Positions 44,787-62,454 of a DNA stretch of 64,000 nt are shown here, in pieces. The stretch is from the NCBI GenBank assembly GCA_015183035.1, contig JACZZP010000018.1, positions 930,001 to 994,000 on the forward strand, written 5' to 3'. Position numbers and translations under genes: made by a program. The notes beneath the pieces were generated by a model, which saw nothing but the letters and a program-made list of their open reading frames with translations, ran no database searches and was not told the DNA's origin. The stretch comes from Meloidogyne chitwoodi. Its lineage: Eukaryota; Nematoda; Chromadorea; Rhabditida; Meloidogynidae. Within the stretch, counting starts at the first letter, position 1. The number at the start of each line of letters is the position of its first letter.

Positions 44787-46394
44787 ATGAGTTGTTCGGC
44801 AGATTCTTCTTTTAATTATTTACCTTCTAATAATAATAATAATATAATACAATCACAATTAGATAATTTAAATTATTATCAAAATATTCAGCAACACCAT
44901 TCACAACAAACATTTCAACAAATTGGAAATAATGGGAGAATTATTAAACAGGTTTTTTTAAATTAAAATAAATAAATAAATTAATTTTTTAGCCTTCTTC
45001 TACACAATCACAACATAATCAATTTATACAACAATCTAATAATAATAATTATTTATCTAATAATAATTTAATTTCAATTTGTCCTAATATTGATCAACAA
45101 CAAAATGACCATCTTTTTTCTTCAGATCAACAACAACAAACAATTAATAATAATAATAATTGGATATTAAATTCTTCTTCTTCTTCTTGTAATAATGATG
45201 GATTTAATTTAATTGATTTTTATGGAAATAATAATAATAATATAATTTTAAATAATTTAAAAGAAGAAGAAACATTAAATAGATCTTCTAATTATTCAAC
45301 AATAATATCTAATAATAATAATTTAACATTTAATTCACCAATAATAATTACAAAACAAACTAAAAAAAGAGGCCCAAGTAATTAAATATTTTTAATTTTA
45401 TTTAATTAATACCCTTAGGGGAACAAAAAGGTAATAATACCTACAAAAGATTTTTGTAATAAAAATCATTTTTTATACCATCGTCTCATTGAATTTTTTT
45501 TGAGAATATAATTTATATAATTAATTATTTTTAAATTAAAAAAGGAGGAAAAAGAAATCAACAACAAAAAAATCAAAATAATAATTTAATAAAATCAGCA
45601 AATTTAAATGAATCAACAAAACCTTTAGAACAATATAAATGGATGCAAATAAAAAGAAATACAAATAATAATAATTTAAAATCTTTAATAACAAATAATA
45701 CCTCAACATCATTTGGAAATTTGACAGGTTAAATTAATTAAATATTTTTATTTTTTTGGGTCATCTTTGACACCTTTTTTAAGGAAAAGGGCCATAAATA
45801 AATCAAAAAATATTTTTATTTTTTAGCATTAAATAGTCAATATTCTTCTAAAGAATTAATTAATAATAATAATTCTTTAAATAATTCTAATAAATTAATT
45901 TCATCTTTATCTTCTCCTTTGGAATCACAAGAAAATGTAACTAATAGAACTAATTTTACTTATCATCAATTAACTGAATTAGAAAAAGAATTTCATACAA
46001 ATAAGTTAATATTTTAAATTAATTAAATTATTATTTAAATTTATTTAAGATATTTACAAAAAAATAGAAGAGCAGAAATTGCTTTAATGTTACAATTACA
46101 TGAATCTCAAATTAAAATTTGGTTTCAAAATAGAAGAATGAAGGTTTTTTATTTTAATTTATTTTATTTATTTTAATTTAATTAATTTAAAAGTTAAAAA
46201 AACAACAAAAAGAAACTGCTTTTTTACGTGCATCTTCAACAAATTTTAATAATAATTTAAAAACAACACAACAATTAAATAATAATAATAATAAATTAAA
46301 AAATAATAATAATAATATAGGATTATCATATTCTTCTTCATTAAATGGTTCTTCTTGTTCTTCTTCATCTTCTCCTTCACCAAAAAGGCATTAA
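44787..46394 (+). CDS. ceh-13: Hox1/labial-class homeobox gene (ceh-13 type)
   Basis: Anterior Hox transcription factor. Residues before the homeodomain are Asn/Gln/Ser-rich with long Asn runs. The labial-type hexapeptide lies in [10 protein letters not shown] (exon at about 45544-45728). The homeodomain starts [20 protein letters not shown], is interrupted by an intron, resumes [20 protein letters not shown] and ends [12 protein letters not shown] before another intron, then [26 protein letters not shown] is the labial/Hox1 signature. The tail is Asn/Ser-rich, ending SPSPKRH at 46394. Six exons, all phases checked at the homeodomain. In C. elegans ceh-13 neighbours lin-39; here another Hox gene lies 12 kb further on in opposite orientation. 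Confidence 0.9.
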
Positions 46395-56675: not shown

Positions 56676-57681
56676 ATGTTTACATTTACACATAAACCGT
56701 CAAAAAAAGGTTCTAAAGGTGGAGGTGGAAGTTCCTCTTCAGAGGATTTGGCTGCCAGTGGAGGAAGATCATCTCCGTCAGAAAGTGGATCTATGTCATC
56801 TGCACAGGGTTATCCACCTTTAATGAATTCTGATAATGCATTTATTGATATGCACGAACAAACTTGTGTTAGGGAATCTGGACAATTAAATGGTCTTCAA
56901 TTTACGATACGAGGGTGCTCGGTATGCTTAATTATCTTTTCCTAAAGTTTAATTAAAAAATGAACCGTTAAACCAAATACATTTATTTAAAAATTTCTAA
57001 TCAATTCAGAGCTCGGTTCTAGCTTTATTGGACTACGTGTCCTCAATTATTATTGAAGATTGCAATGATTGCGTTTTCATATGCGGGCCTTCTCGTGGAA
57101 GGTTTTTTAATTTTAGTTATTTTAAAAATTGATTTAAGTGTTTTTATGAGAAATTGTACAAATTGTCTTTTACTTGCTGCATGTTATCAATTTAGGGCTT
57201 CAAATTGTAATAATATTGAAGCTCATCTACATACAACAACTCAACCGGTTTTTTGAATTATTAAGAAACTTTTTGTTAAATTTTATTTTTAGACAATTGA
57301 GGATACTAATTTGATTGTTGCACCGCTTTTAATGAGTTATCAAGAAATGGACGGTATTTTTATATTTGTTAATTCAAAAAATGGTTTCATATATTAAATT
57401 TAAAATAATATTTTTTGTCAAAAAACTATTTAATTAAATCACCGCATCCAATAAAAAAAATTTCAGCCCATATGGCAGCAGCAGGGCTTGACAGAACAAA
57501 AAATTTATGGAAAGAGGTTCGTAATTTTACGCCTGATACAGGTAGTTTTCAATCAATGCCGTTTGATCCATTTGGTAATGGGGCTATTGCTTGTGAAGTT
57601 GTAACTGATGAATTACTTGAACGGCTCAGCACTTTTATGGAACAGGAATGTTCACATGAACTCTTGTTAGGCCCTTCTTAG
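56676..57681 (+). CDS. RP2/XRP2 orthologue, ARL3 GTPase-activating protein
   Basis: C-CAP/cofactor-C-like protein that stimulates GTP hydrolysis by ARL3 and so unloads lipidated cargo at the ciliary base. The Gly/Ser-rich N-terminus MFTFTHKPSKKGSKGGGGSS is followed by the beta-helix: SGQLNGLQFTIRGCS, VSSIIIEDCNDCVFICGPSR, SVFMRNCTNCLLLAACYQFR (with the catalytic Arg of QFR) and THTTQP-type turns. It ends WKEVRNFTPDTGSFQSMPFD. Five exons in phase. Vertebrate RP2 begins MGC for double acylation; this protein lacks Gly2 and Cys3. The ATG follows an acceptor-like TCTTTTAG, so it is probably the true, trans-spliced start. Confidence 0.85.
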
Positions 57682-58561: not shown

Positions 58562-61500
58562 TCAAAGTGAATGACCAATTTCATTACTCCGGAAATGGAA
58601 ATGGCTTAAATTAGTTTTATCTTCAATCATTAATGTAATTGGAGCAGCTCTCTCTGTTCGATCCTCTTCTTCACCAGCACTTTCAGTGCCACAAAAATCT
58701 GTGCATTTTATTTCTTTCTGGGTAAAATTAAAAGTTTAAAAAAAATTAAATAATTATTTTTATTTGCGTTTATAATGAAAACGGATCAGATTTATTGTTT
58801 AAAGTTAGATCAAAAGGAAGTTCGCATATTAGTTTAAAAATTAATTAACAAGAGGGAAGAACTGAGAACAAAATCTCCTAAAAGCCACAAAAAACTTTCT
58901 TATTAATAAAAGCTCTAAACCAAAACACTCATCAATAATTAATTTATTTATTACAATAGAAAAAGATTTACATAATATCACATAAGAAAATAGGGACAAT
59001 AAGAATCACACAAGAAAATTAGGGGAATTATTACATAATACAATTATATATTTATGAGAGGGGATATCCTATCACTGGCATCATCTTCATCTGACTGCCG
59101 CTTACATGTTGTACTCGATTGGAAGGTTCTTTCGGCGCACCATCCCGTCTCCCTGGAACCACTCACGGCGGAATTGCTTGGCTGCTCCCTCCGGTGTGTT
59201 GGTCCATTCGACAGTGACACGATCGTTGTTGGTCGCTTCCGCAGCAGGATCGAAGGCGTCACAAGAGATGGCGATGTTGATGGCCTCCTTCGGGTCGAGA
59301 ACACCATTTGGCGGGTCCATGTTCAGACGGCGAGGATTGGTAGTCTTGAAGGCGAAACCGATACGATGACCACCAGAGTTGATGACCTTTAATTGAAAAA
59401 GAAAGAAATATTAGTTGTTATTAAGTAGAAAATAAATTAAAATTTAACCTTCATATAGTAGGTATGCTTGTCATCGAACGGAGCGTTGAAGATCACCTTC
59501 ACGGCTGGTAGAGTCGTGATGTCGCCGGGTGGAACAGATGCCATCTTTTAGAACGGTTGTTTCGTTGATGTTGTTGTGTAGAGGTAGTAGAAAGCTGTTT
59601 GATACTTAGTGAGTATTCGATCAAGTTTTTATACCAAAAAGTTCAAGAATAAATATAACTATAAAAGCTTGCTCAAATCTTCATTTATTATCAACCAGCT
59701 TTCTTCAACTCCAAACAACAAACATCAACAAAACAACTCCAAATGGCATCTGTTCCACCCGGCGACATCACGACTCTACCAGCCGTGAAGGTGATCTTCA
59801 ACGCTCCGTTCGATGATAAGCATACCTACTATATGAAGGTTAAATTTTAATTTATTTTCACTTTAATAACACTAATATTTCTTTCGTTCTAATTAAAGGT
59901 CATCAACTCTGGTGGTCATCGTATCGGTTTCGCCTTCAAGACTACCAATCCTCGCCGTCTGAACATGGACCCGCCAAATGGTGTTCTCGACCCGAAGGAG
60001 GCCATCAACATCGCCATCTCTTGTGACGCCTTCGATCCTGCTGCGGAAGCGACCAACAACGATCGTGTCACTGTCGAATGGACCAACACACCGGAGGGAG
60101 CAGCCAAGCAATTCCGCCGCGAGTGGTTCCAGGGAGACGGGATGGTGCGCCGAAAGAACCTTCCAATCGAGTACAACATGTAAGCGGCAGTCAGATGAAG
60201 ATGATGCCAGTGATAGGATATCCCCTCTCATAAATATATAATTGTATTATGTAATAATTCCCCTAATTTTCTTGTGTGATTCTTATTGTCCCTATTTTCT
60301 TATGTGATATTATGTAAATCTTTTTCTATTGTAATAAATAAATTAATTATTGATGTGTTTTGTTGTTTTTTCTAAAATTAATTTCTTAAGGATCATTTTC
60401 TTTTTATTTAATATATTCATTCCATCTAATTCCTTTCACTTTTTTGCCTTATATTCTAAAAATAAATTCAAACCTTTTGTTTCATTCGTCTGTTTTGAAA
60501 CCAAATTTTAACCTTAAAAAGGAGATATATTTAAATTTATTAAATTAAATAACTTGTCTTTCAGTTAATTGTAATGCTTCTGAGATTTCTTGTCTTCTTT
60601 TTCTTGTTAAATATTTATTATAATGAAATTCTTTTTCTAATTCCAAAGTTTGATTCCGAGAATATGTTTGTCTTGTACGTTTTCCATCACTGCAACCTTT
60701 TAACCCTAAAATTGTTTTTTTTAATATTTTTAAGTAAATGTAATATTTTTTTGTTACAAATCTATATAAATTATTTTACCATTTCTTAAACTTTTAAAAT
60801 CTTTTTCTTAGATTTTACCTTATTTCCTGTTTTTTATTTCCTATAAATTTCCAACAAAAATATAAAACAACATTCCATTGAAAAAAAAAGAATATATTTC
60901 CCCCTAATTCTCGTATATTATATTTGGCCATATTTCATCCGGCTGTCTACTTTTGATCTTTACCGACATTTTTTAGATAAAAAGGACAGCACGACGGCAA
61001 AAAAAAAAAAAAGTAAAAAGGGAATATAAAAAAGAAAAGAAGAATTAAAGAAGTTAGAGAGAGAGAGACGAGAATTAGACATAAAAAATAAATATTTTTA
61101 AAATAATTTAATTATTTTTAAAAAATGAGTGATTTAATATACTTAATTTTTTAATTAAAATATTATTTAATAAAATATTTATTTATTGCCTTTTTTTTAA
61201 TTTAAAGATAATTAATTAATTTAATTATATTTATTTATTTATATTTTTCTTATAATATTAAATTTTCTTTTTCTGATTTACAACCTCTTTTTACAACTTT
61301 AAAAGGCTTAACAAGAAAAACGCGCGAAAAAAAAAGAAATAAAAAAGAAAATGCCGACTTTCCCTTTTTTGCAATTTTTTATTATTCTCGTCATACTAAA
61401 AAATAATAAATAAAAAAAATAATTTTTGGCCAAATAAATGTTAAAAAAAGTTTTATTTTCCTGTCGCCAAATATTTTTTATAAAAACAAAAAATAAAGGG

Positions 61501-62454
61501 AAAATTAATTATCCAAATAAATCTAGTGATTTTTAGTCAAAATTTAAAAGAAATGTTAAAAAAATAAATAAAAGAGATTTTAAATATATTTAATTAATAA
61601 AAGAAAATATTTAAATAATTTAATTTAAAAAAAATAATTTATTATTTTTAAATTATCGTAATTTTTTCTTTAAGATATTAATCTATAAATATTAGAAAAA
61701 TAGCAAAATAAAATAAATAATAAATATTTTTAAATGAAAAATAAATAAATATTAATTATAATATTAATTAATTTTAAAAATTTAATTAATTAAAATTAAT
61801 TTAATTATTTTAATTATTTTAATTAATTTAATTATTTTAATTATTTTAATTAATTTTAATTTAATTATTTATTATTTACCATTCATTTTCATCCAAGGAA
61901 ATGTTTGAACATTTAAAAGTTTATTATTATTATTAGGAGAAGTATTATTAAAAATAGAAGATGAAGAAGAACAAGAAGGACCAACACAATTATTATTATT
62001 ATTTTCTAAAAAAGAATTTGAAGGAATTACAGAAACTGAAGAAGGAACTGTTGCAGCAGTTGTTGGGGATGATGATGAGCCATAAAAACTTTAAAAAATA
62101 AAATTTAATTTTAAATATAAAATAAAAATAATATTATTTTTATTCAAAAGAAATTATTTAAAAATAATATTTATTTTTATTTATTTTTAAATATTATTAA
62201 AAATACCCAGCAACAGCTTGATTTGTAACTTCAGCCCATTGGGCAGCAGTTAAAACATTTTTAATATAATTATTATTATTATTATTATTTAATTGTTGAT
62301 TATTTAATAAATATATTTGTTGATTTTGATTTTCATAAAAATTATTTAAATTATTATTTTCTCCTCTTTTTTGTTCTTCATTATTTGACCAATAAATTGA
62401 AGAATTATTTAAAGAAGATTCTTGATTATTATTATTATTATTATTTCTATACAT
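58562..62454 (-). CDS. Central-class Hox gene (lin-39/mab-5 type) with MSP genes in its last intron
   Basis: Five exons, minus strand: 62454-62207, 62088-61880, 60705-60554, 60512-60474, 58717-58562; 267 residues, every phase fits. Exon 1 is Asn-rich (MYRN then a run of Asn). Exon 2 ends with the Hox hexapeptide [10 protein letters not shown]. Exon 3 starts [20 protein letters not shown], continues [20 protein letters not shown] and ends LTERQ at the classic position-44 intron. Exon 4 is [13 protein letters not shown]. Exon 5 continues [20 protein letters not shown] and ends NEIGHSL. YPWM-type hexapeptide and [17 protein letters not shown] mark an Antp/Scr/Dfd-class gene. Adjacency to ceh-13 favours lin-39; the RQTY arm favours mab-5. 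The 1,756 bp last intron contains two MSP genes. Confidence 0.87.
59102..59544 (-). CDS. Major sperm protein, copy 1
   Basis: Cytoskeletal protein that drives amoeboid movement of nematode sperm and also signals to oocytes. Two exons, 126 residues: [32 protein letters not shown], intron, [40 protein letters not shown], then [20 protein letters not shown] and [13 protein letters not shown]. The immunoglobulin-like fold and C-terminal RKNLPIEYN are diagnostic. Coding GC is much higher than the surroundings. Differences from copy 2 that I found are synonymous, so the proteins appear identical. Minus-strand TATAAAA at 59627-59633, about 85 bp before the ATG. Confidence 0.96.
59545..59742. promoter_or_regulatory. 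Shared bidirectional MSP promoter region
   Basis: Only 198 bp separate the two start codons. TATAAAA occurs on the minus strand at 59627-59633 (for copy 1) and on the plus strand at 59660-59666 (for copy 2), so the two TATA boxes are back to back with 26 bp between them. A TGATAA motif (minus strand, about 59688-59693) could be a GATA-factor site, the type known to act on C. elegans msp genes. Confidence 0.7.
59743..60183 (+). CDS. Major sperm protein, copy 2
   Basis: Divergent twin of copy 1. Exons 59743-59838 and 59899-60183, intron 60 bp, 126 residues, same protein sequence as far as I can read. Two synonymous differences were noted: GAT for GAC in FDDKH and CGC for CGT before EWFQG. The 3' flank with AATAAATAAATT repeats that of copy 1. 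It lies on the strand opposite to its Hox host. Confidence 0.96.

Follow-up and report, generated by a model that had tools for sequence, protein, structure and literature searches.

Two head-to-head major sperm protein genes within the final intron of a mab-5-like Hox gene of Meloidogyne chitwoodi, and a hairpin predicted in the Hox pre-mRNA

Two intact genes for major sperm protein (MSP), one on each strand, were located inside the last intron of a mab-5-like Hox gene of Meloidogyne chitwoodi. This arrangement had been claimed in the original prediction; the exons and phases were found to hold, and a gene model of M. incognita concurred. The window, i.e., the whole stretch of DNA analysed, comprised 64,000 nt (positions 930,001–994,000 of contig C10) in an assembly of 47.48 Mb and 30 contigs. 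Within the intron, the two MSP genes were placed head to head and formed an inverted repeat of 1,452 bp. Judged from the sequence, the Hox gene is probably functional, and its exons 4 and 5 would be spliced over the palindromic pair with the help of a hairpin that masks the MSP signals. The coordinates of the features are listed in Table 1.

TABLE 1. Coordinates in the window of the Hox gene and of the MSP pair in its fourth intron.
Feature	Position	Strand	Remark
Hox exon 1	62207..62454	-	start codon at 62454; M. incognita model P0001 (A0A914LCK3) likewise opens MYRN
Hox exon 2	61880..62088	-	hexapeptide-like FPWMKMNG; identical FPWMKMNG in relatives P0001, P0011 and P0013
Hox exon 3	60554..60705	-	bulk of homeodomain
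Hox exon 4	60474..60512	-	ends RRMKQK, phase-0 donor
Hox intron 4	58718..60473	-	1,756 nt, holds both MSP genes
Hox exon 5	58562..58717	-	ends IGHSL and stop
MSP palindrome unit	58917..60368	both
MSP(-) exon 1	59449..59544	-	Hox strand
MSP(-) exon 2	59102..59386	-	includes stop; PF00635
MSP(-) poly(A) signal AATAAATAAA	58943..58952	-	within arm
Bidirectional core	59627..59666		TATAAAA minus 59633-59627, plus 59660-59666; 26 bp between
MSP(+) exon 1	59743..59838	+	antisense to Hox transcript
MSP(+) exon 2	59899..60183	+	includes stop
MSP(+) poly(A) signal	60333..60342	+	about 130 bp before Hox exon 4

The Hox gene was situated on the minus strand and contained five exons with a product of 267 aa, all phases being consistent. 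The four introns measured 118, 1174, 41 and 1756 nt, and GT...AG borders were present in all of them. The length and phases proposed originally were reproduced together with the exon coordinates, including the end of exon 4 at 60474. The spliced protein matched the Pfam homeodomain profile PF00046 with an E-value of 1.2e-21, which was its sole Pfam match. The motifs of the mab-5 (HOX6–8) group, defined from the nematode relatives in the protein search, were both found in the spliced protein, namely, a homeodomain with RRMKxKKE and FPWMKM upstream of it. Among the matches listed in that search, the top two were Meloidogyne models, one of which was named mab-5; vertebrate Hox proteins came next by E-value, and the cyst nematode protein P0011 was higher in identity (84%). 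By these features the Hox gene is mab-5-like.

Two other homeobox exons with a Pfam homeodomain match were observed within about 15 kb, one on each side (window 45802–46176 on the plus strand; C10:1001418–1001576 on the minus strand). One of them read as labial/ceh-13-like and one as AbdB-like. The AbdB-like gene merits classification because, according to PMC11603191, egl-5 has undergone losses in the crown group of root-knot and cyst nematodes. A convergent neighbour gene was also seen in the window at 56676–57681 (plus strand), one exon of which had a weak match to TBCC (tubulin binding cofactor C) just below the Pfam cut-off.

The MSP family is known for expression in sperm only, which is the basis for calling the pair sperm-specific. 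Both MSP genes of the window lay entirely between exons 4 and 5 of the Hox gene, and the equal order was found in P0001 of M. incognita. Each gene was intact with one intron, the encoded proteins of 126 aa were identical, and the start codons were 198 bp apart. In comparison with solved structures, the protein matched PDB 2bvu and 1msp with an E-value of about 1e-64. The core characters of MSP were present (about 126–127 aa, PF00635 and one intron near lysine 32/33), and the same intron position is described for Meloidogyne MSP in the accessible text of PMC2893452. Between the arms of the palindrome, complementarity reached 99% along 478 bp and 97% along 129 bp; the value for the whole unit was only 93.9% because the promoter centre was asymmetric. 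Hence, the earlier description as a near-perfect 1.4 kb palindrome applied to most of the gene bodies and the 3' ends, but not to the centre. The description of the pair as TATA-driven agreed, as far as sequence can tell, with the two TATAAAA boxes of the core, whose spacing was 26–29 bp across the five units that share this layout.

The reality of exon 5 was evaluated from its reading frame, its composition and its conservation. Without splicing, exon 4 read RRMKQKV and then a stop. The 6 kb beyond exon 4 contained 281 AG sites, each of which was tested as an acceptor, and K/R followed by E/D was in phase at two of them, 58717 and 58653, after which the frame remained open for 51 and 7 codons, respectively. 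Other last exons were rejected, since none of the sites besides 58717 fitted both RRMKxKKE and a long frame; over these 6 kb, the claim that this exon alone restores the motif was upheld. A K–E start with 51 open codons occurred in 7 of 20,000 simulated stretches, which were drawn from a first-order AT-rich background with a length of 554 nt (the intron without the palindrome, plus 250 nt). Exon 5 was single-copy, its sole match in the 47.5-Mb assembly being itself. Its peptide of 51 residues was identical at 36 positions to the tail of the M. incognita model (P0001) and at 36 positions to the M. graminicola mab-5 model (P0002), and the tails of these two species were also identical to each other at 36/51. 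The GC content was 35% in exon 5 and 20–22% in its flanks. Moreover, RRMKxKKE was found in 15 of 18 relatives, chosen as nematode or unnamed out of the 120 listed; the exceptions were the two Meloidogyne models and P0116 (RRMKNKKV). Exon 5 (58717–58562) looks real on this evidence.

The best database match was A0A914LCK3 of M. incognita (4 member sequences), which is named Major sperm protein and carries both PF00046 and PF00635. This model ran through Hox exons 1–4 to RRMKQK, 23 further residues, MSP up to FQGDGM and the exon 5 tail ending in IGHSL. Its MSP part was identical to the window MSP at 113/114 residues. Gene models follow the genomic order on one strand; thus, by that model, M. incognita would carry an MSP gene downstream of the homeodomain exon and ahead of the same last exon, oriented like Hox, i.e., in the same Hox intron and on the same strand. 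The fusion itself is read here as a prediction artefact. In P0123 (A0A914NCL8; M. incognita representative; UniRef n=34, Meloidogyne), an antisense reading of MSP exon 2 was followed by sense MSP when inspected by eye. Such an order is the mark of a divergent pair, suggesting that divergent MSP pairs are present in M. incognita too. Both entries look like annotation chimeras, one of Hox and MSP and the other of antisense MSP and MSP. In the M. graminicola model P0002, exon 4 was joined to a site five codons before the expected acceptor; exon 5 was present, and the model contained no MSP. With the fused protein as the query, no further homeodomain–MSP protein appeared in the best 120 of 3,863 matches, and with Hox exons 3–5 as the query, no further Meloidogyne protein was added in the best 120 of 2,983 matches.

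The fold of the Hox RNA from exon 4 to exon 5 (1,951 nt) was computed thermodynamically, without proteins or transcription kinetics. The predicted energy was -1340 kcal/mol, 691 of the 836 pairs were formed across the arms, and the longest uninterrupted helix contained 464 pairs. The predicted mean probability of being unpaired was 0.001 for the MSP donor in the Hox RNA versus 0.417 in the lone MSP RNA, and 0.082 versus 0.538 for the MSP acceptor. For the MSP poly(A) signal AATAAATAAA, the corresponding predictions were 0.002 and 0.661. The donor and acceptor of the Hox gene itself had predicted values of 0.352 and 0.676 in the Hox RNA. The Hox strand of intron 4 carried seven AATAAA motifs; three were external to the palindrome, and a fourth was in its centre. 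These four were predicted to stay open, at 60408 (0.922), 59689 (0.81), 58796 (0.485) and 58764 (0.502), and the other three were predicted to be buried at 0.002 each, namely, the two of the MSP(-) signal and that at 59856. Since four are predicted to remain open, the masking is incomplete and the hairpin cannot be the sole guard against early polyadenylation.

A sequence of events compatible with these predictions can be proposed. In the male germ line, the two TATA boxes of the MSP pair would drive its transcription outward. As this transcription would start near the centre, each MSP mRNA would contain one arm only, whereas the Hox transcript would contain both. During Hox transcription, the antisense MSP(+) arm would be synthesised before the MSP(-) arm, which would fold back on it while emerging; the masking strand would therefore already be present as the MSP(-) signals emerge. 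The resulting duplex would bury the MSP donor, acceptor and poly(A) signal and would loop 1,452 nt out of the 1,756-nt intron. This looping may allow Hox exons 4 and 5, which are 304 nt apart outside the palindrome, to be joined with less interference. We infer that the palindrome would make the same-strand nested MSP gene largely invisible to Hox RNA processing.

The same duplex may be given another role, in which the Hox intron would also serve as a hairpin-RNA gene and the excised dsRNA would feed an RNAi pathway that silences MSP outside sperm, wherever mab-5 is transcribed. This role is considered unlikely; if true, it would couple body patterning to repression of the sperm programme. The MSP(-) arm contained 607 22-mers, of which 466 matched perfectly in unit C10a, 469 in C10b, 167 in C4, 167 in C5a and none in C12 (these units are described below). 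The candidate targets of such an intronic dsRNA would be the eight arms encoding standard MSP.

Other explanations of the locus were weighed against splicing over the pair. Exon 5 may be unused, so that the Hox mRNA would end soon after exon 4 with RRMKQKV and the MSP pair would merely lie downstream. The immediate stop on reading through exon 4 accords with this, as does the AATAAA at 60408, which is 66 nt into the intron and predicted to be open. However, the homeodomain would then be truncated, the exon 5 frame restores RRMKxKKE and shares 36/51 residues with each of two other species' models, and the GC content of exon 5 stands out from its flanks; an early end is considered very improbable. 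Another alternative is the formation of Hox–MSP chimeric mRNAs as in A0A914LCK3, with the same-strand MSP exons acting as alternative Hox exons. The model itself exists, and in the window Hox exon 4 and MSP(-) exon 2 are both in phase 0, so that a skip to 59386 would stay in frame for 94 codons. But in the M. incognita model the junction to exon 5 departs inside the MSP coding sequence, as expected of a predictor bridging two genes, in the window an in-frame TAA at 6–4 nt before the MSP(-) start blocks fusion through exon 1, and the MSP acceptor is hidden in the predicted fold. Chimeric mRNAs are thus regarded as quite improbable.

Inverted duplications are a known artefact of long reads, and the palindrome could accordingly be a fold-back formed in the assembly or library. 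The arms differed, however, at 24/82 positions in the 5' leader and 8/60 in the MSP intron, and the centre was asymmetric. Furthermore, four more units of the same layout occurred elsewhere in the assembly, and the same antisense–sense order was seen in P0123 of M. incognita. Five units of one layout and arms that differ in places make an assembly fold-back unlikely, and an artefact of either kind is rated as extremely improbable. Splicing of the Hox gene from exon 4 to exon 5 over a genuine nested pair remains the preferred reading.

The genomic distribution of such units was explored with the PF00635 profile, which gave at least 31 matches genome-wide; 14 of those listed were arranged in seven head-to-head pairs. 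Palindromes at the DNA level were found in six of the seven (the window unit, C10a, C10b, C4, C5a and C12), and none was detected at the remaining pair at C5:1916 kb. One layout of 1.4–1.5 kb was common to the window unit, C10a, C10b, C4 and C5a. The six arms of C10a, C10b and C4 encoded exactly the window MSP. Unlike the other units, C5a (C5:696730–698221) encoded two divergent 123-aa versions of MSP that differed from each other, which may reflect relaxed selection or a new function. The C12 unit (C12:1195725–1197189) consisted of divergent MSP-domain genes with 93% arms and no DNA match to the five units, indicating that the head-to-head layout recurs in what appears to be another branch of the MSP-domain family.

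The similarity of the arms was unevenly distributed. In the window unit, the arms had 0/168 differences in the 3' UTR, compared with 10/165–167 against the C10 units. The 5' leaders and the MSP intron were the divergent segments noted above, and the MSP(-) copy of the intron differed at only 2–3/53–54 positions from the C10 copies. In the coding exons, the arms differed at 1/96 and 1/282 positions, no fewer than against the C10 units. The C4 arms had 0 differences from the start codon to the 3' end, and no homogenisation was seen for those of C5a. This pattern would be compatible with patchy gene conversion acting both inside palindromes and from unit to unit. The homology between arms and between units faded soon after the poly(A) signal. 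No obvious target-site duplication was seen by eye in the alignment, and a mobile fold-back element is not favoured.

C10a was flanked by a matrixin gene (plus strand; PF00413, HExxH at 1176923) and a CUB gene (minus strand) that was astacin-looking by eye, and it is probably intergenic. C10b, which starts at C10:1201021, was about 1.7 kb upstream of a minus-strand homeobox gene and short of a plus-strand Myb-domain gene; it is probably intergenic as well. The homeobox gene beside C10b (C10:1198235–1199290, minus strand; match at C10:1198377) was of the paired type and split by introns. Its frames read HRTIFSQEQICK, ELENLFKKENYPNVQQREELSQKTKLAEDRIQV and KVWFQNRRAKWRK, with FAINELLGL upstream, and we take it to resemble VSX/ceh-10. 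Partial matches to the MSP unit, below a full palindrome, were observed at C10:656454–657131, C8:422579–423421, C2:181076–181464 and C10:722036–722269, and these are possibly decayed units.

The nested pair was compared with known systems through the available portions of the sources cited. As in the nested genes of metazoans (PMC8467205), the internal gene is complete in a host intron. Internal genes are described in that portion as often testis-specific in the fly and over-represented as such in the mouse, and a nematode MSP pair would be a parallel case. The 'simple' nested pairs considered there have one internal gene, on the opposite strand in 74.3% (human) and 77.8% (mouse) of cases, whereas the present intron belongs to a Hox gene and contains a palindrome of two identical genes, one per strand. 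The inverted-repeat divergent pairs of Caenorhabditis (PMC1803023) are likewise head-to-head, near-identical genes; according to the text available, they duplicate as an entity, and gene conversion has been proposed to maintain the similarity of their arms. The word 'intron' is absent from that text, whereas the present repeat is inside a host intron and must therefore appear in the host pre-mRNA.

For the MSP family, gene conversion in Caenorhabditis clusters is described in the accessible part of PMC5765362. The sources on this family (PMC5765362, PMC2478646, PMC2893452) share with the present case the same protein, the short intron near lysine 32/33 and purifying selection; head-to-head palindromes or a location inside another gene are not reported in the parts available. 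In Drosophila, testis genes are silenced by hairpin RNAs (PMC10317233, PMC10292708). As far as the available text extends, these resemble the present repeat in being long inverted repeats homologous to male germ-line genes, whereas the repeat of the window is made up of intact coding genes in a Hox intron and its duplex is a prediction. None of the literature matches listed described an MSP gene inside a Hox gene. Nested genes and inverted-repeat gene pairs are known separately; their union in a Hox intron, together with an MSP at the corresponding place in a gene model of a second species and a predicted self-masking hairpin, was absent from those matches and appears to be new.

The nesting offers an explanation for the puzzling entry A0A914LCK3, a 'Major sperm protein' with a homeodomain. 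The locus would be a natural case in which the pre-mRNA of a host gene has to mature although it contains an entire gene on the same strand, with splice sites and a poly(A) signal of that gene's own. The inverted copy could mask the signals of the nested gene, which suggests how nested genes might be tolerated. Furthermore, this arrangement gives a Hox gene, in a genus of crop parasites, an intron that could yield a large dsRNA with homology to a gene family of the male germ line.
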